NCBI GenBank assembly: GCA_021792235.1
Contig: JAJYVC010000003.1
Coordinates: forward strand, 960 to 39,058
Length of the DNA: 38,099 nucleotides
Direction: 5' to 3'
Source: Microcaldota archaeon
GTDB lineage: Archaea; Micrarchaeota; Micrarchaeia; Micrarchaeales; CABMGC01
A program made the translations under genes and the position numbers. How positions within the stretch are numbered: the first letter of the stretch is position 1; each line of letters opens with the position of its first letter. The notes beneath the pieces were generated by a model. That model had not been told where the DNA came from, ran no database searches, and saw only the letters and a list, made by a program, of their open reading frames with translations. Positions 20,180 through 29,926 of this stretch are shown in pieces.

Positions 20180-21196
20180 GTGCAGGTTATGGATGGAAGC
20201 GAAGTTTCAATAGTGTCAATTGCCAACACAATGCTAATAGATGCCATACTCGGATCAAACAGCGTTGATGAGGCAAGCCTTGCAATAAGGCTTGGCGCAG
20301 ATGTCAACTCACTTAACCCTGTGGACATAATACACAACGGGGTGAAAAGGACCGTCGGCGTCACTCCGCTTATGGGCAGTGTCACTAGATCTGGCAGGGA
20401 TCCAAGGATAGTTGAGCTGCTGCTTGAGAACGGTGCAGACCCGACCTACCACAAGGCCACCAGCAGGACAGGCGTCATACACCTTGCAGCATATTCCTGC
20501 ACTCCAGAGATAATCAACGCCCTTGTCCGGTCCAAGCTTGTCGATGTCAATTTGCCTGACAATGATGAAACAACCCCGTTAGTATATGCTATAAAGGCCC
20601 GCAAGCCACAGAACATGAGGGCACTTCTGGATGCAGGCGCAGACGTGAATTACGGAGGACCAGAAGGAATACTGCCGGTGATCGAGGCTACGAAGGGCAA
20701 TGATGATCATGCACTGTCCATCCTTTTCGAGTACGGGGTAAATGTCAATGTGAGGGACAGCGAATTGGCATCGCCTCTGCATTATGCTGCCATGCTCAAC
20801 AACACGGGCATAGCGAGGATGCTTATTAGGAAGGGTGCAGACCTCGATGCAATGGATGGAAACGCGCAGACGCCGCTGCTCAGGGCATGCTTTGACGGAA
20901 ATGCCGATGTCGCAAAGGTTCTGGCAGATGCTGGTGCTGATGTTAACGCAAAGGATGTTGCAGGAATGACTCCGCTAATGCTTGCTGTAAAGTCGGGTGA
21001 TGCTGAACTTGCAGCTTATCTAATTTCGAAATCAGCCGACGTGAGGGCGGTCGATGCGCAGGGCTACGACGCGCTAACTTATGCATATGCAAAGAGAGAC
21101 AATGGGCCTCTGGTAAAGCTGCTGAGGGATGGTAACGAGGCAGCATTGCAGCTCAGGAGAGACGGCATTTCTACAGAAAGAAGAAAGGTAAAATAG
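20180..21196 (+). CDS. Ankyrin-repeat protein 1
   Basis: Multiple ANK consensus units e.g. 'DNDETTPLVYAIKARKPQNMRALLDAGADVNY', 'NAQTPLLRACFDGNADVAKVLADAGADVNAKDVAGMTPLMLAVKSGDAELAAYLISKSADV'. Confidence 0.95.
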   Translation: MQVMDGSEVSIVSIANTMLIDAILGSNSVDEASLAIRLGADVNSLNPVDIIHNGVKRTVGVTPLMGSVTRSGRDPRIVELLLENGADPTYHKATSRTGVIHLAAYSCTPEIINALVRSKLVDVNLPDNDETTPLVYAIKARKPQNMRALLDAGADVNYGGPEGILPVIEATKGNDDHALSILFEYGVNVNVRDSELASPLHYAAMLNNTGIARMLIRKGADLDAMDGNAQTPLLRACFDGNADVAKVLADAGADVNAKDVAGMTPLMLAVKSGDAELAAYLISKSADVRAVDAQGYDALTYAYAKRDNGPLVKLLRDGNEAALQLRRDGISTERRKVK

Positions 21197-21221
21197 ATGG
21201 ATCTTATAAAGCTGCTATCTG

Positions 21222-22133
21222 GTGCATGGCGTGGTAAAAGAAGCAGACAATGAGATACTCCGCGATCTTGCGCATTCGCTTCTTCGGGATGCCGTAAAAG
21301 ACAATGATCCTGTTCAGGTCGGGATCGCCCTGAGGCTTGGCGCCAACGTCCTGGAGCCTGTGGAATTTGGCACATTGAAGACGTCCAGGGGAACAGTGAC
21401 TGATTCCGCCACGCCACTAATAGCTGCAGTGTCTAGGAAGGATGCGAGTGCAGAGGTTGTAAGGCAGCTCCTAGACGCAGGCGCAGATGCTAACTCATCG
21501 GAACATGGCATCAGCCCACCAATCCACCGGGCGGCGTATTACAACAACACGGAGGTGACAAAGCTGCTCGCAGAGCGCGGGGCCGATGTGAATTTGCAGG
21601 ACAGGTTGGGCAAGACATCGTTGGCATGGGCCGCGCAGGCCGGCAGCACTGCGGCAGCCATAATCCTATTGGAACACGGTGCAGATCCTGAGATAGCCAC
21701 CAATGACAATGAGAAGCCGTTGGCTATAGCGATGAAGAATGCAAGACTTGATTTCTCAGAGATGCTGTTGCTCAAAGGTGCATCGGCAAATACAACAGAC
21801 AGATACGGAAATCCGGTGCTCCACATGGCGATAGGAAGGAACAGTCTCAGGCTCTCCTCTCTGATGGTGCTGAAGGGTGCCGATGTAAATGCAAGGGACA
21901 ATTCAGGCAACACTCCTCTAATACTCGCAGTGATATCTGGCAATGCGGCGATATGCAAGAAGTTGCTCGATGCTGGTGCCGATCCGATGCTCTCTGACAA
22001 AGCCGGCAAGAGCGCGTCGCAGTACGCTGCCCTCTCTCCAGACCCTATAATAAATGTCCTGTTTAGAAATGTCACCGCACAGAAACAGCTTGGAAGCCAA
22101 GGACCAGCGGCGGTGCGCAGGAAGATAAGCTGA
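21222..22133 (+). CDS. Ankyrin-repeat protein 2 (tandem paralogue)
   Basis: 'ISPPIHRAAYYNNTEVTKLLAERGADVNLQDRLGKTSLAWAAQAGSTAAAIILLEHGADPEI', 'SGNTPLILAVISGNAAICKKLLDAGADPML'. Confidence 0.95.
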   Translation: MHGVVKEADNEILRDLAHSLLRDAVKDNDPVQVGIALRLGANVLEPVEFGTLKTSRGTVTDSATPLIAAVSRKDASAEVVRQLLDAGADANSSEHGISPPIHRAAYYNNTEVTKLLAERGADVNLQDRLGKTSLAWAAQAGSTAAAIILLEHGADPEIATNDNEKPLAIAMKNARLDFSEMLLLKGASANTTDRYGNPVLHMAIGRNSLRLSSLMVLKGADVNARDNSGNTPLILAVISGNAAICKKLLDAGADPMLSDKAGKSASQYAALSPDPIINVLFRNVTAQKQLGSQGPAAVRRKIS

Positions 22134-23093: not shown

Positions 23094-23687
23094 TTATTTC
23101 TCGGTTATGCCCATGAGCAGTTCATGGCTCCTGAGGGAATCACTCTTGCTCACGACGAGCAGGGTTTCTGTATAGCAGGAAACGAACTCTATTATGTTTA
23201 TGTTCTGCTCGGCGAGCAGCGAGGCTATGAATGCGACGAAACCTGGAAGTGCCTCAAGCCTCTCCTCTGAATGTATTATTATCGCTGATGCGTCGGAGGT
23301 CACTTTTATTGTGCCCCTGTCCTTCTTTAGTCTCTTCAGCTCTGTATCGTCGGATACGAGGTACACGTAGTAATCGCTCAGCTTTATCTTGCCGCTCTTA
23401 GCCGCATCGATGTCCGAAGTCGATATAACTACAGATATACCGCTGCTTATGGTCACCCTGCTCTGGCTAAGTATCGATGTCGCATGCTTCTCTATGTTGA
23501 TGTCCTTATCGCGCAGCTCAGCGGCATACCTCCTTAGCGCACCCTTTATGGCATGGTAATTCCTCACCTGAAGGTCGCGCTGTATTATACGTGCAAGAGC
23601 GCTGTAATTGACTATGCTCCGCTCAAGCGCTTCAAGCGTGTACGGCTTGTTCTTGAGATAAACCCTTACCATGTCAGCTATGGTCAT
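23094..23687 (-). CDS. ACT-domain putative regulator with N-terminal helical (HTH-like?) domain
   Basis: 'MTIADMVRVYLKNKPYTLEALERSIVNYSALARIIQRDL' plus C-terminal ACT-like 'LPGFVAFIASLLAEQNINIIEFVSCYTETLLVVSKSDSLRSHELL'; ATG at 23687 preferred over ORF-track 23729 because of promoter layout. Confidence 0.75.
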   Translation of the reverse strand: MTIADMVRVYLKNKPYTLEALERSIVNYSALARIIQRDLQVRNYHAIKGALRRYAAELRDKDINIEKHATSILSQSRVTISSGISVVISTSDIDAAKSGKIKLSDYYVYLVSDDTELKRLKKDRGTIKVTSDASAIIIHSEERLEALPGFVAFIASLLAEQNINIIEFVSCYTETLLVVSKSDSLRSHELLMGITEK

Positions 23688-23704
23688 TGTATCACCCGAT
23701 ACAA
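23687..23704. promoter_or_regulatory. Operator-like palindrome, site A (core GTATC-ACCC-GATAC)
   Basis: Sequence TTGTATCACCCGATACAA: perfect 7-bp inverted repeat; immediately 5' of the ACT-gene ATG and upstream of GNAT1. Confidence 0.65.
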
Positions 23705-23772
23705 AATATACTAATATTGAACAGGACAAAGCTTATATATCTCAAGCAATAACGGACCCTTAAGGGGAAGAC

Positions 23773-24114
23773 ATGGTAGTAAATAAGCCTATATCAATAA
23801 CGAAAAGCACCCAAGCTGACATTCCAAGGATAGCCGCGCTTCTGGGCGCGGAAAGTTCTGCAGCTCTGAGGTCAAGACTTCAGGAAGTCATACGCGATGG
23901 GTTGTCTGTAATTGCAAAGACCGATTCTGGAGAAGTCGTTGGCCATGGCTATGTATTCAATGGCAAGGATGGAGAAGCGCTGTACGTTGCCGTTTCTGAC
24001 AAAAGCCCGTCAGTTCTGCGTAATGACATAGAAGGCGCATTGAGGAAGATATTGAGGCCTGAGCAGGAGGAGTTCAGAGACTACGTGCCTCTCCCAGGTA
24101 CCTGCGACAAATAG
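23773..24114 (+). CDS. Short GNAT-like protein lacking the acyl-CoA-binding motif
   Basis: 'ITKSTQADIPRIAALLGAESSAALRSRLQEVIRDGLSVIAKTDSGEVVGHGYVFNGKDGEALYVAV' aligns by eye with the N-terminal half of the two downstream GNATs. Confidence 0.7.
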   Translation: MVVNKPISITKSTQADIPRIAALLGAESSAALRSRLQEVIRDGLSVIAKTDSGEVVGHGYVFNGKDGEALYVAVSDKSPSVLRNDIEGALRKILRPEQEEFRDYVPLPGTCDK

Positions 24115-24231
24115 AATAATCAAATTTGCGAACAACTCCCCTAGAAGGTATCTGTTGTTTATAAGCAATGATGCCGTAGCTTTGCAGTTCTTGTTTAAGT
24201 TGAAAACCGTTTTGCAAAGTTAAGGTTTATT

Positions 24232-24245
24232 ATATCAAATGATAC
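24232..24245. promoter_or_regulatory. Operator-like palindrome, site B (ATATC-AAAT-GATAC)
   Basis: Same TATC-N4-GATA core as site A, ~70-80 bp upstream of GNAT2. Confidence 0.55.
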
Positions 24246-24313
24246 ATTATAGCTCAATTATTGCATAAATATGCCGCAATTATTATAAAGCCTAAAACCT
24301 ACAACATCTACAG

Positions 24314-24886
24314 ATGCATATGGCGAATATCGAGAAGGCATGCACGGCGCAGCTTGGCATACTCGCAAAGGAAAAACGCAGCGTTGGGTTTCACATAGCT
24401 CCTGCAAGAGTTTCCGATGCTGCAGAGATAACCGGAATGATTAACAACGAGGCTGAGCTCTCAGGAGCGGTAATCAAAGTAACGCAAAAAGAGGTTGAGG
24501 GATGGATAGATGGCGGGCTTTCCTTCGTTGCAAAGGCAGGCACACGGATAGTCGGGCACACTGCGGGATGCATCTGGCCTAAGTCGGGCATTGCAGAGCA
24601 TAGGGCAGTTGTGGTGCTTCCGGAATACCGCGGCAACGGCATAAACACCGCCCTCACGTCGGCATTCGTGCAGCGGCTCATAGAGCAGGATCCCCACATA
24701 ACCATAATATCCCTCAAGAATTCCAATGCAAGCGAGGCAGCCAAGAAAGCTGTACTCAAGTCAGGATTCTGCAAGATAGATGTGAATGAGCTTCCAGATG
24801 AGATATTCGACGGCCCGACCTCCCGCGACCAGTATGCTGCATACGCTTTCAACTACTCTGAAGTGAAGGCGCTTGCGCGCTCTTGA
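24314..24886 (+). CDS. GNAT-family N-acetyltransferase
   Basis: 'IAPARVSDAAEITGMINNEAELSG', 'AVVVLPEYRGNGINTALTSAFVQRL' (R-x-x-G-x-G/A acyl-CoA motif). Confidence 0.88.
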   Translation: MHMANIEKACTAQLGILAKEKRSVGFHIAPARVSDAAEITGMINNEAELSGAVIKVTQKEVEGWIDGGLSFVAKAGTRIVGHTAGCIWPKSGIAEHRAVVVLPEYRGNGINTALTSAFVQRLIEQDPHITIISLKNSNASEAAKKAVLKSGFCKIDVNELPDEIFDGPTSRDQYAAYAFNYSEVKALARS

Positions 24887-24908
24887 AATTATCGGATAAA
24901 ATGTCATT

Positions 24909-24922
24909 GTATCATCTGATAT
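24909..24922. promoter_or_regulatory. Operator-like palindrome, site C (GTATC-ATCT-GATAT)
   Basis: Same TATC-N4-GATA core; ~75-88 bp upstream of GNAT3 ATG 24997. Confidence 0.55.
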
Positions 24923-24996
24923 CTTTTTGTTCGATTTTGTGTTAAATATGCCACAATATTTATATACAAATTTTGCCTAATTCTAATGATAATGAA

Positions 24997-25539
24997 ATGG
25001 CAGCTCTCCTAAAACCGCAGAATGCCAACGTAGTAAAGGTGCACTTATCTGCTTCTACTGAGAAAGATGCGGCAAAGATAACTGGGATTATAAATGAGGA
25101 ATCCAAGAGGTCAGGCGCCGTACTGCACGTTTTTGAGGATGAGGTTAAGGGATGGATAAAGGAGGGGCTCTCCTTCGTGGCAAAAACAGACTCGGGAGAG
25201 ATAGTGGGCCATCATGCTGCGTCGGTATGGTCCGGTTCTGGATGGGTTGAACTGCGTGCAGCGGTTGTAATTCCGGAATACCGCGGCAACGGCATAAACA
25301 AGCACCTCAAGGAGGCAATAATGGATGCAATAACCGAAAAGTACCCAAATGCAACAATAGTATCGGTAAAGAACAAGTCGAGCAACGGCAGGCAGGTGCT
25401 CGGCGAACTGGGATTCAAGCAGATTGATCCGTCAGAAGCACCAAATGAGCTTTTCGGTATAGGTCCTGTAGGCGAGGCGTACGATATTTATGTTTATACT
25501 CCTTCTAAGGATATTGTAAAGCAGCTCGTACGCGCCTAG
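24997..25539 (+). CDS. GNAT-family N-acetyltransferase (paralogue of 24314..24886)
   Basis: 'AAVVIPEYRGNGINKHLKEAIMDAI'; TATA-like 'tttatata' at ~24959 fits ATG 24997 better than TTG 24973. Confidence 0.88.
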   Translation: MAALLKPQNANVVKVHLSASTEKDAAKITGIINEESKRSGAVLHVFEDEVKGWIKEGLSFVAKTDSGEIVGHHAASVWSGSGWVELRAAVVIPEYRGNGINKHLKEAIMDAITEKYPNATIVSVKNKSSNGRQVLGELGFKQIDPSEAPNELFGIGPVGEAYDIYVYTPSKDIVKQLVRA

Positions 25540-25570: not shown

Positions 25571-26671
25571 ATGCACAGCATCGACGTAGTTAAACTGACA
25601 AGTGACTTGGTGAACATACGTTCGCAAAGCGAATATGATGGGGAAGCAGGCGTAGCGAAGTACATAACAGAATACTTGGATGATCTAGGCATAGTGTCTG
25701 AAACCACCGAATTCTCAAAAGGAAGGTGCAGCGTAACTGCCTCAATTGGCAAAGGCGAAGGGCTAATGCTCAATGGCCACATAGATACGGTGCCTATAGG
25801 TGATGAACGCAAATGGAAATACGGCACAGAGGCCAAGGCAGTTAACGGAAAGCTGTACGGAAGGGGCACATCAGACATGAAGGGAGGCGTTGCAGCGATA
25901 CTTGCCTCGCTGCCAAGCATAAGCAAATCGCATCTGCGCAGGAGGCTGCTCCTCACCTTCGTTGCAGACGAGGAAGTAAGTTCCAGGGGATCGGAATGGC
26001 TCATCAAGAACAGGCCAATGCTCTTCAACCGAGTGAGATATGGCATAGTGGCCGAGCCTACCGACATGAACGTACAGGTGGCGCAGAAGGGCCACGTAGT
26101 CGTTGATGTCACTGCCAAAGGTCTAAGCGCACACGGATCAAAGCCAGAGCTTGGGCACAATGCGATAGTTGACATGTCGAAATTCATAATGTCGCTTGGC
26201 AGGCTGAAATTTAAGACAAGGGACAGGGTGCTAGGAAAGGGCACTGTGAATGTAGGCAGGATAAGCGGTGGCACAGCAGTAAACATAGTGCCAGATCTAT
26301 GCGAGATAAGCATCGATAGACGTCTAGTTCCTGGCGAAACTGACACCATTGCTTCGAGTCAGATAAAATCAATACTAAATTCCCTCGGCATAAGCTATGA
26401 AATAAAGACAAGAGGCTATAGGAAGCCTTTTGCCCTCAAGCCGGATTCGTACATAGTACGTCTGCTCAGGAGCATAGTATCAAGCAATCTGACAGGCTCT
26501 ACAGGTTATACTGAGGCAGAGCTGTACAACGCCAAGGCAGGCATAGAATGCGTCGTGTTCGGTCCAGGCACCAAGAACATAATCCATAAGCCAGACGAAT
26601 ACGTAAGCATATTGAACCTAGAGAAATCAAAGAAGTATTTCTCAATGGTAATGCAGAAATGGTGCATCTGA
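25571..26671 (+). CDS. M20-family metallopeptidase/deacylase (ArgE/DapE-like)
   Basis: 'LMLNGHIDTVPIGDERKWKYG', 'GKLYGRGTSDMKGGVAAILASL', 'FVADEEVSSRGSEWL', 'VAEPTDMNVQVAQKGHVVVDVTAKGLSAHGSKP'. Confidence 0.93.
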   Translation: MHSIDVVKLTSDLVNIRSQSEYDGEAGVAKYITEYLDDLGIVSETTEFSKGRCSVTASIGKGEGLMLNGHIDTVPIGDERKWKYGTEAKAVNGKLYGRGTSDMKGGVAAILASLPSISKSHLRRRLLLTFVADEEVSSRGSEWLIKNRPMLFNRVRYGIVAEPTDMNVQVAQKGHVVVDVTAKGLSAHGSKPELGHNAIVDMSKFIMSLGRLKFKTRDRVLGKGTVNVGRISGGTAVNIVPDLCEISIDRRLVPGETDTIASSQIKSILNSLGISYEIKTRGYRKPFALKPDSYIVRLLRSIVSSNLTGSTGYTEAELYNAKAGIECVVFGPGTKNIIHKPDEYVSILNLEKSKKYFSMVMQKWCI

Positions 26672-26730
26672 ATCTATCATACGCATTCAAAGACTTTATA
26701 ATAATACAATACAATATCCTAATGCAAAAT

Positions 26731-26805
26731 GGGCCTGTAGCTCAGCTTGGATAGAGCGGAACCGTCCTAAGGTTAAGGTCGCGGGTTCAAATCCCGTCAG
26801 GCCCG
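26731..26805 (+). tRNA. tRNA-Arg(CCT)
   Basis: GGGCCTGTAGCTCAGCTTGGATAGAGCGGAACCGTCCTAAGGTTAAGGTCGCGGGTTCAAATCCCGTCAGGCCCG; loop GTCCTAA; followed by T-run. Confidence 0.94.
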
Positions 26806-26811
26806 TTTTTT
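26806..26811 (+). terminator. Oligo-T run after tRNA-Arg
   Basis: TTTTTT directly 3' of tRNA; archaeal poly-T terminator-like. Confidence 0.5.
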
Positions 26812-26879
26812 GATTGGTTTGACGTTGAATTAATATATTTATTAGGATATAGTATGTTATGGTACAACAGTGAGGTACT

Positions 26880-27836
26880 ATGTCGTTCAAGGCAAAGCAT
26901 TCAAGTCCGGTGAAAGTCAAGGGGGACGTATTCTCAATCAATTCGAGCAACTACTTAATAACAGCCAACTTGGTTGTTGTAAGGGAGATTCCAAAATCAT
27001 TTGATGGAGGGCTCACCACGCAGAGGATTGGTAAGCCTGACTATCAAAAAATACGCGAACAGCATGAAGAATTTGTAAATGTCATGCGCAGGCTCGGACT
27101 GAAGGTCATAAGGCTTCCCGCGTATGAGGAACACCCTGACATACATTTCCCAAGGGATACCATAGCTTCGTACAAGGGTGCGCTGATGAGCCTCAATCCT
27201 GGCGCTGCGTCGAGGAAAGCTGAGGTGGAGAGGAATATCTCTGACCTTGAGAAAGTAGGGATTCATGTGAAGAGGATCGAGTATCCCGAAGGCGCGTTCA
27301 TAGAAGGAGGCGATGTGCTTTCCTTCGACGGCGAGGGTCTTGTGGTAATAGGCATATCAGGAAACAGCAATGACATACGGACAAACGAGGCTGGTGCAAA
27401 GGCATTCGCTGAGGCATTGAAGACAATTGACCATGACGTTACCATCGTAGCTGTAAGGCATACTGGCGTGCTGCATCTGGAGACGGGCTTCACCAGGCTC
27501 ACAAAGGATCTGGCGTTGAAGGATCCAAAGTGTTCGATAGACTGGAAAAATCCGTACTATCCTCTCGGTGACGGTAAGAGGGTGAAACTTCCTCCATGGC
27601 AGATAATCGAGCTGCCCGAGGCGGAGGGCTACGGTGCGCACGTGCTACCAATCAACGGCGCCGTCATCATAGCAAAGGGCTATCCTACAGTGAAGGGTCT
27701 TGCAGAAAAATACTACAATCTCGTTATAGAGGTTGACATGAGCGAGTCGCACAAGATGGATGGCAGCCTAAGGTGCTGGACCATACTGCACAATGAAAAT
27801 ACTGAAACACACCGCAGTGAAGCCAAACCTTTATGA
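26880..27836 (+). CDS. Dimethylarginine dimethylaminohydrolase/arginine deiminase-family (amidinotransferase fold) hydrolase
   Basis: 'IHFPRDTIASYKGA', 'EGAFIEGGDVLSFDGEGLVVIG', 'VLHLETGFTRL', C-terminal 'DGSLRCWTIL' catalytic Cys context. Confidence 0.85.
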   Translation: MSFKAKHSSPVKVKGDVFSINSSNYLITANLVVVREIPKSFDGGLTTQRIGKPDYQKIREQHEEFVNVMRRLGLKVIRLPAYEEHPDIHFPRDTIASYKGALMSLNPGAASRKAEVERNISDLEKVGIHVKRIEYPEGAFIEGGDVLSFDGEGLVVIGISGNSNDIRTNEAGAKAFAEALKTIDHDVTIVAVRHTGVLHLETGFTRLTKDLALKDPKCSIDWKNPYYPLGDGKRVKLPPWQIIELPEAEGYGAHVLPINGAVIIAKGYPTVKGLAEKYYNLVIEVDMSESHKMDGSLRCWTILHNENTETHRSEAKPL

Positions 27837-27866: not shown

Positions 27867-28907
27867 ATGCCCAAGCTAAGCAAGAAGATAAGCGAGCCAA
27901 GCATACTCGTGAAGCCGGTGTCGAAACTAGGCGGTCTGGATAACATACACTTGGCACTGATGGCTTTGGTTATAATACTTATACTTCTTGTGGCTGTAAT
28001 CTCGTACAACACAAAGATAACGATTGTGAACTACACAAATCAGACTACCAGCATCAATGCAACCACTTTCAAAGCAATCCATACGCCATCCCAGGCATTA
28101 TCCCAGGCGGAACGCATACTGGCGAGTTATTCGAATATCAATAGCTCGATATCTCTTCTGCCATACCTTGCCAATGTGAATGCTGCAAACGTCTTCTACC
28201 TGCAGAATGTGCGGCAGTGGTACGTATCGATACCATACACTGGTCCTCAGAACGGTAAAACTTATCTATTCAGCATAATCATGAATGACAGCAATCTGTC
28301 CAGGTTCAGCACATTCGTTCAGGATGTAAACCCCATAGCAGTAACAAACAACCAGGTTATCTCAAGGGGCGTTGTGAAACTGTACGGCCAGACCTCGTGC
28401 ACTGCGCCAGGCGGTGCAGTACCTGTGTACTGGTTCCTTGACCCATACGCGCCAGGCGCCCTGCAGTCCTTGAAAAATGCAACTGCGCTTGAGCAGCGAT
28501 TCGGGAGCAATGTAAATGTCAGCATAAAGATACTGAGCACACAGTATTCAGTGGGCATAGCAAATACCTACGGGCTCAATAACACTCTTCAGCTTGGTAA
28601 GTATCTGTACTGCGCATCTACGCAGCGCAACTTCACTAAGTTTGTTACTGCAGTAAATACGACTTACCAGGACACATATATACCTGCATACCTGCTCCAA
28701 GAGCTTGCTGGGCAGTCAGGACTCAACACCACTGTGCTTAACGCGTGCGTCGCATCGGCGCAGGGCAGTATAAACGCGCAGTTCGAGCAGGCAAGGCACT
28801 ACAACATAACCTCATCGTCATCAGTGCTCACGAGCTGTGAGTATATCTCCATACCTCAGACTGTCCAGGATGCGGTGTGCTATTCCGATCCTTCGATATG
28901 CGGATAA
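27867..28907 (+). CDS. Membrane-anchored, exported DsbA-like thioredoxin-fold protein lacking the CxxC motif
   Basis: Single N-terminal TM 'IHLALMALVIILILLVAVISY'; 'VPVYWFLDPYAPGALQSLKNATALEQRFGSNVNVSIKIL' in position of DsbA 'FxDPYCPYC'. Confidence 0.65.
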   Translation: MPKLSKKISEPSILVKPVSKLGGLDNIHLALMALVIILILLVAVISYNTKITIVNYTNQTTSINATTFKAIHTPSQALSQAERILASYSNINSSISLLPYLANVNAANVFYLQNVRQWYVSIPYTGPQNGKTYLFSIIMNDSNLSRFSTFVQDVNPIAVTNNQVISRGVVKLYGQTSCTAPGGAVPVYWFLDPYAPGALQSLKNATALEQRFGSNVNVSIKILSTQYSVGIANTYGLNNTLQLGKYLYCASTQRNFTKFVTAVNTTYQDTYIPAYLLQELAGQSGLNTTVLNACVASAQGSINAQFEQARHYNITSSSSVLTSCEYISIPQTVQDAVCYSDPSICG

Positions 28908-29745: not shown

Positions 29746-29786
29746 AGGAGCTTCAAGTAGGGTGCAAGAAGCTCCCAAACAAAATT

Positions 29787-29861
29787 CGGGCATGACGGGA
29801 TTTGAACCCGCAACCAGCGGCTCCGCAAGCCGACGTGCTATCCAGGTTACACCACATGCCC
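29787..29861 (-). tRNA. tRNA-Arg(GCG)
   Basis: Reverse complement GGGCATGTGGTGTAACCTGGATAGCACGTCGGCTTGCGGAGCCGCTGGTTGCGGGTTCAAATCCCGTCATGCCCG; loop TTGCGGA. Confidence 0.92.
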
Positions 29862-29926
29862 ACGACAATACTTTATATAGGTTTCTATTTATAAAGACTT
29901 TACATCAATTTTATACTAGTGAGCAC

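Follow-up and report, generated by a model that had tools for sequence, protein, structure and literature searches.

A candidate palindromic operator and its putative amino-acid-sensing regulator in Micrarchaeota

Palindromes, genes and promoters of the window

The window analysed here, a stretch of 38,099 nucleotides from a genome whose closest named relatives are Micrarchaeota MAGs, carries one inverted repeat in three copies, each ahead of one of three consecutive ORFs and the first also at the start of a divergent gene for an ACT-domain protein. Which protein reads these repeats, and which genes are controlled through them? The repeats were recovered from the sequence exactly as the first-pass annotation had described them, with site A being TTGTATC-ACCC-GATACAA (23687-23704), site B ATATC-AAAT-GATAC (24232-24245) and site C GTATC-ATCT-GATAT (24909-24922). 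The corresponding predicted operators, to which no strand is assigned, are the 16-mer TGTATCACCCGATACA (A, 23688..23703), TATATCAAATGATACA (B, 24231..24246) and TGTATCATCTGATATC (C, 24908..24923). Their distances from the three downstream ORFs are similar, as had been claimed, with 77 bp (A, to the first GNAT-like ORF), 75 bp (B) and 81 bp (C) from palindrome centre to start. The proposed placement of site A directly at the divergent ACT gene was confirmed as well: the ATG of this gene occupies 23687-23685, so that the 16-mer abuts the start codon, a position also occupied in most orthologues.

Within the window, GTATC-N4-GATAC with up to two mismatches occurs 29 times versus 12.8 ± 3.6 times in shuffled sequences, and none of 100 shuffled windows reached 29. 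A scan of the genome (1.02 Mb, estimated 90% complete) for RTATC-N4-GATAY gave 11 places, compared with 5 for the reversed-pattern control. Eight of these lie within coding sequence, one of them at 23344 inside the ACT gene. The palindrome is not scattered over the genome: its only intergenic occurrences are A, B and C.

The description of three GNAT-like genes holds for the second and third, whereas the first calls for a correction. The second (24314..24886, + strand, 190 aa) and third (24997..25539, + strand, ~180 aa) match Acetyltransf_1 above the cut-off (E 3.5e-8 and 3e-7, respectively) and are paralogues with 45% identity. The first (23773..24114, + strand, 113 aa) is truncated, stopping ahead of the acetyl-CoA-binding motif; it has no Pfam or NCBIfam match and is recognisable only via the third GNAT (39% over 61 aa, E 2e-6). 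Truncated GNAT-like proteins of ~100-113 aa recur beside the ACT gene in other genomes (L086, L095, L088), and the short form may therefore have a function instead of being a fragment in decay. Downstream follow an M20 ArgE/DapE-family deacylase (25571..26671, + strand; TIGR01910 with 247.9 bits against a cut-off of 217.6), which is probably co-transcribed with the third GNAT across a gap of 31 bp, and a DDAH/arginine-deiminase-like gene (26880..27836, + strand). A possible weak site, AGTATGTTATGGTACA (26851..26866, no strand assigned), precedes the latter gene; it has 4 mismatches and is uncertain. Distant relatives of this DDAH-like gene carry the operator in other genomes.

Among the neighbouring features are two tRNA-Arg genes with the anticodons CCT and GCG (26730-26806 and 29786-29862), one of which follows the deacylase and precedes the DDAH-like gene. 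In 11 loci one of the neighbours is a predicted 346-aa protein (27867-28907 in the window), which has a membrane-like segment at its N-terminus and matches no Pfam family. Two adjoining ankyrin-repeat genes on the + strand (20189-22133) lie just upstream of a MoxR-type ATPase gene and have relatives in 4 of the neighbouring loci.

Sites B and C share more than the palindrome. Both cores are followed, after the 21 bp noted in the first-pass annotation, by a common block AAATATGCCRCAAT, which runs into a TATA-like box (TTATAAA at 24283..24289 and TTATATA at 24960..24966, + strand) located 44.5 bp from the respective palindrome centre. A degenerate second operator-like block was detected by a position-weight matrix at a fixed offset of 28 bp in promoter B (24259..24279, + strand, score 13.9) as well as in promoter C (24936..24956, + strand, score 23.7). 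For the first GNAT-like ORF a putative TATA-like box TTATATA lies at 23733..23739 (+ strand), and no second block was found at site A.

The same layout was analysed in 26 target promoters (19 GNAT, 4 ArgG, 2 DDAH and 1 ADI), in which the palindrome, a degenerate second copy ~30 bp downstream and the TATA box follow in fixed order; this arrangement is present at B and C and absent at A. Information content amounts to 1.5 bits per base in the palindrome and 0.8 in the second block, compared to 0.0-0.4 in the linker centre and 0.3 in the DNA past the TATA box. In 16 of the 26 promoters, the centre of the palindrome and the start of the TATA box are 43.5 bp apart. The second block, TTTGTATCAAATATGCCACAA, resembles the palindrome in degenerate form: its matrix also detects the first sites of ACT promoters on the opposite strand. 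This weaker copy ends beside the TATA box, and the spacing of ~30 bp corresponds to three helical turns.

Conservation of the candidate operator and its predicted target genes

Upstream regions of relatives were aligned and gave the operator consensus TGTATCAWWTGATACA. Allowing up to 3 mismatches in 14 positions, 40 of 68 ACT orthologues, mostly from Micrarchaeota, have a copy no further than 100 bp from their start, whereas ~0.3 were expected from shuffles. The proposed local regulon is supported as real and conserved across relatives. In the 42 nearer of the 68 named ACT loci (514 kb) we found 27 matches with at most one mismatch versus at most ~1 for permuted half-sites; 21 of the 27 are intergenic, although intergenic DNA makes up 10% of these loci.

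The exact core GTATCAWWTGATAC was found in 10 of 59 family genomes, once per genome, and in none of the other 49; its reversed control occurs in 1 of 59, and all 10 genomes with the core carry the ACT gene. Six copies are located in the intergenic region between ACT gene and GNAT and a seventh precedes a GNAT, in line with the enrichment of the palindrome before orthologous GNATs. Neither of the two sequence outcomes named in the first-pass annotation as speaking against the regulon, a lack of such enrichment or a random scatter over the genome, was observed. The others precede argininosuccinate synthase (L075) and an arginine-deiminase-like gene (L081), or are situated between an M20 peptidase and a gene of unknown type (L076). 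This last gene (L076:1663-2814) is divergent to the M20-like peptidase, with the core 155 bp upstream, and its 383-aa product matches no Pfam family. One match in L009, which is identical to site B on the reverse strand, was rejected as an operator because it is coding. The source genomes of the 59-genome sample and of the 68 loci largely overlap, so that the two samples are not independent.

With up to two mismatches the motif shows no excess in six whole genomes (25 places versus 48 for the reversed control). Consequently, it is strong matches and their position that carry the statistical argument, and weak matches are not trustworthy unless their position supports them. No recognisable site was found upstream of the ACT orthologues of L097, L117, L125 and L132.

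Besides GNATs, the operator-bearing targets elsewhere are ArgG (argininosuccinate synthase), DDAH and ADI-like genes. The neighbourhood of the ACT gene contains GNAT in 25, ArgG in 20, ArgH in 20 and DDAH-like genes in 8 of the 42 loci, and the ArgE/DapE-like deacylase, previously suggested as part of the module, proved a recurrent member with 20 loci. In the common arrangements the ACT gene is divergent to GNAT-M20-ArgG-ArgH or directly divergent to ArgG-ArgH. With strong similarity, the ACT gene itself was found in 30 of the 59 sampled family genomes, commonly divergent to a GNAT. Among the 30 ACT-positive genomes, 17 have ArgG and 10 a DDAH-like gene, while both are absent from all 29 ACT-negative ones (p=6e-7 and p=8e-4, respectively; for ArgG by genus, 10/14 versus 0/13); these co-occurrences could reflect joint gain or loss of clustered genes. 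The same ACT gene with its cluster is also found in four records titled Marsarchaeota, bacterium or Bathyarchaeota (L087, L112, L116, L122), possibly mislabelled bins or cases of gene transfer.

Taken with ArgH, a cluster partner, the comparative targets ArgG and DDAH/ADI-like suggest that the regulated function is arginine metabolism. From the amino-acid module of the first-pass annotation the local regulon is accordingly retained, and its general acylation/deacylation role is replaced by arginine metabolism. For the window's genome this reading is borrowed from relatives, since ArgG was sought there (90% complete) and not found; the genome does have the DDAH-like gene, the deacylase and the three GNAT-type ORFs. 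In a survey of Micrarchaeota, ArgG/ArgH were reported in 13.3% and arginine deiminase in 28.6%, the latter being described as an acid-stress adaptation (PMC8407392).

The ACT protein as candidate binder

The ACT-domain gene (23094..23687, - strand) encodes the proposed regulator, a protein of 197 aa with a DUF7523-type helical N-terminus and an ACT_7 domain. The DUF7523 match (E 3.3e-10, 40.9 bits versus a cut-off of 27) spans profile positions 2-79 of 158, that is, only the N-terminal half of the Pfam model. ACT_7 falls just under its cut-off of 27 in the window protein (E 4e-6, 26.9 bits) and reaches E 1.2e-11 in relatives; both domains were matched in 58 of 58 aligned orthologues, a domain content shared with the predicted archaeal regulators of the COG2150 type. 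A DUF7523 relative is also present in Haloferax volcanii. The structure model of the full protein has a mean pLDDT of 87.5. Its N-terminal domain (pLDDT 95.6) consists of four helices with no strand, and conserved basic residues are found there at R32, K47 and R52 (the modelled sequence began at residue 2, so that model numbers are one lower than full-length numbers). The winged helix previously suggested for this part had to be rejected: the model has no beta wing, and a search of the PDB yielded no significant structural match, the best one having E 2.2. For the C-terminal part, Foldseek with the full model matched aspartokinase regulatory domains (E ~2e-6, TM-scores of 0.4-0.5 over the whole query), and aspartokinase was the only significant match when the family profile was run against PDB sequences.

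We consider it likely that the palindrome is the operator of the adjacent ACT protein, which would act as an autoregulated, amino-acid-sensing one-component regulator of arginine genes in Micrarchaeota and some other DPANN. The ACT gene, already named as regulator in the first-pass annotation, is the best candidate with an operator at its own start, and since sites occur at arginine-making and arginine-degrading genes as well as at the ACT gene, the ACT protein is probably their switch.

The main rival as binder are Lrp proteins. The palindrome would then be a real operator bound by a regulator encoded elsewhere, for example of the Lrp/AsnC type, with the ACT protein as target or co-factor, which we regard as improbable. 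Lrp proteins classically regulate amino-acid genes, Lrp-type ligand domains were found in 56 of 59 genomes with three matches in the window's genome, and the N-terminus of the ACT protein matches no known DNA-binding fold. Being nearly universal, however, Lrp is found in ACT-positive and ACT-negative genomes alike and its presence does not discriminate, whereas all genomes in which the exact motif was found are ACT-positive, which favours the ACT protein. The motif furthermore follows the ACT gene, for the palindrome is present at the ACT start even where no arginine genes are nearby (L107, L120, L123, L124), and this favours the ACT protein as well. A third argument comes from distant orthologues (30-36% identical), whose half-sites read TGTTACA or TGTTCCA and whose ACT promoters often carry two sites ~30 bp apart. 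In these proteins the sequence of helix 43-55 also differs, so that the near and the distant clade are distinguished by motif and N-terminus alike; as one evolutionary step, this co-change is weak evidence.

Relics of a tandem duplication that included the promoters of the GNAT genes are a very improbable explanation: GNATs 2 and 3 are indeed paralogues with the same promoter layout, but the same site and layout precede the unrelated argG, DDAH, ADI and ACT genes in other genera, and both sites and the TATA box are conserved while the linker centre is not. Chance palindromes in AT-rich intergenic DNA have next to no probability, since the motif precedes unrelated genes, is conserved across genera and exceeds reversed, shuffled and permuted controls, even though similar words with up to two mismatches are not rare genome-wide.

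Proposed switch and relation to known regulators

With the ACT protein as binder, the following mechanism can be envisaged. The N-terminal helical domain of an ACT-protein dimer would read one palindrome, and two such dimers would cooperate on target promoters. The C-terminal ACT part may bind arginine or a related amino acid, arginine being a guess that the regulon supports. At its own gene the bound protein would cover the start region and repress. A site over the start region is the usual place for an archaeal repressor, so that the position of site A makes autorepression likely. At the targets, activation by recruitment is modestly favoured over repression because the strongest site lies distal at a fixed distance; alternatively, the protein might repress by covering the TFB recognition element. 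The window's genome would have a small regulon made up of the ACT gene and the three GNAT-type ORFs together with the deacylase, the DDAH-like gene being a possible further member.

The proposed role resembles that of ArgR/AhrC, which likewise exert amino-acid-sensing control over arginine genes and their own gene via palindromic operators. The domains differ, and the ArgR domain PF01316 was detected neither in the ACT protein nor in the 59 genomes. Archaeal Lrp/AsnC proteins correspond to the proposal as one-component amino-acid sensors with autoregulation and TATA-adjacent sites at helical spacing; unlike the wingless model of the ACT protein they possess a wing, and neither HTH_AsnC nor the AsnC ligand domain was found in the ACT protein. 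The C-terminal part resembles the fold of the aspartokinase regulatory ACT domains and of CASTOR1, an arginine sensor structurally similar to the former (PMC5187391). The ACT protein differs from both by its fusion to a putative DNA-binding domain, and arginine as its ligand is a guess. Judged by these comparisons of sequence features, the best reading is an ArgR/Lrp-like amino-acid switch assembled from different parts, which would be neither ArgR nor Lrp.

Among open-licence papers, COG2150 was found in one, only in a table and with no operator, regulon or binding site; DUF7523 was not mentioned, and no DPANN transcription factor was found for which an operator and a regulon have been defined. 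By the COG2150 name, which stands for a predicted ACT-domain regulator of amino-acid metabolism, the DUF7523/ACT_7 family has already been predicted to be regulatory. Against this background, the ACT protein offers a DPANN factor with predicted operator, promoter layout, regulon and sensor, and as one small protein it can be tested in vitro. More tentatively, it might represent a new archaeal transcription-factor family that combines an ACT arginine sensor of the aspartokinase/CASTOR1 type with a four-helix domain hitherto unrecognised as DNA-binding, and that controls arginine genes across much of Micrarchaeota via paired palindromes 30 bp apart, replacing ArgR. If true, DUF7523, a family of unknown function, would become a DNA-binding domain, and the aspartokinase-like ACT fold would serve as arginine sensor in a second case. 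Likewise, the arginine genes that have been suggested to benefit Micrarchaeota living in acid mine drainage (PMC8407392) would be tied to a specific switch.

In several family genomes we also observed a second, distant ACT/DUF7523-like paralogue of ~230 aa with ~30% identity (for example G034:C15:5621, G011:C7:28532 and G006:C20:10624).
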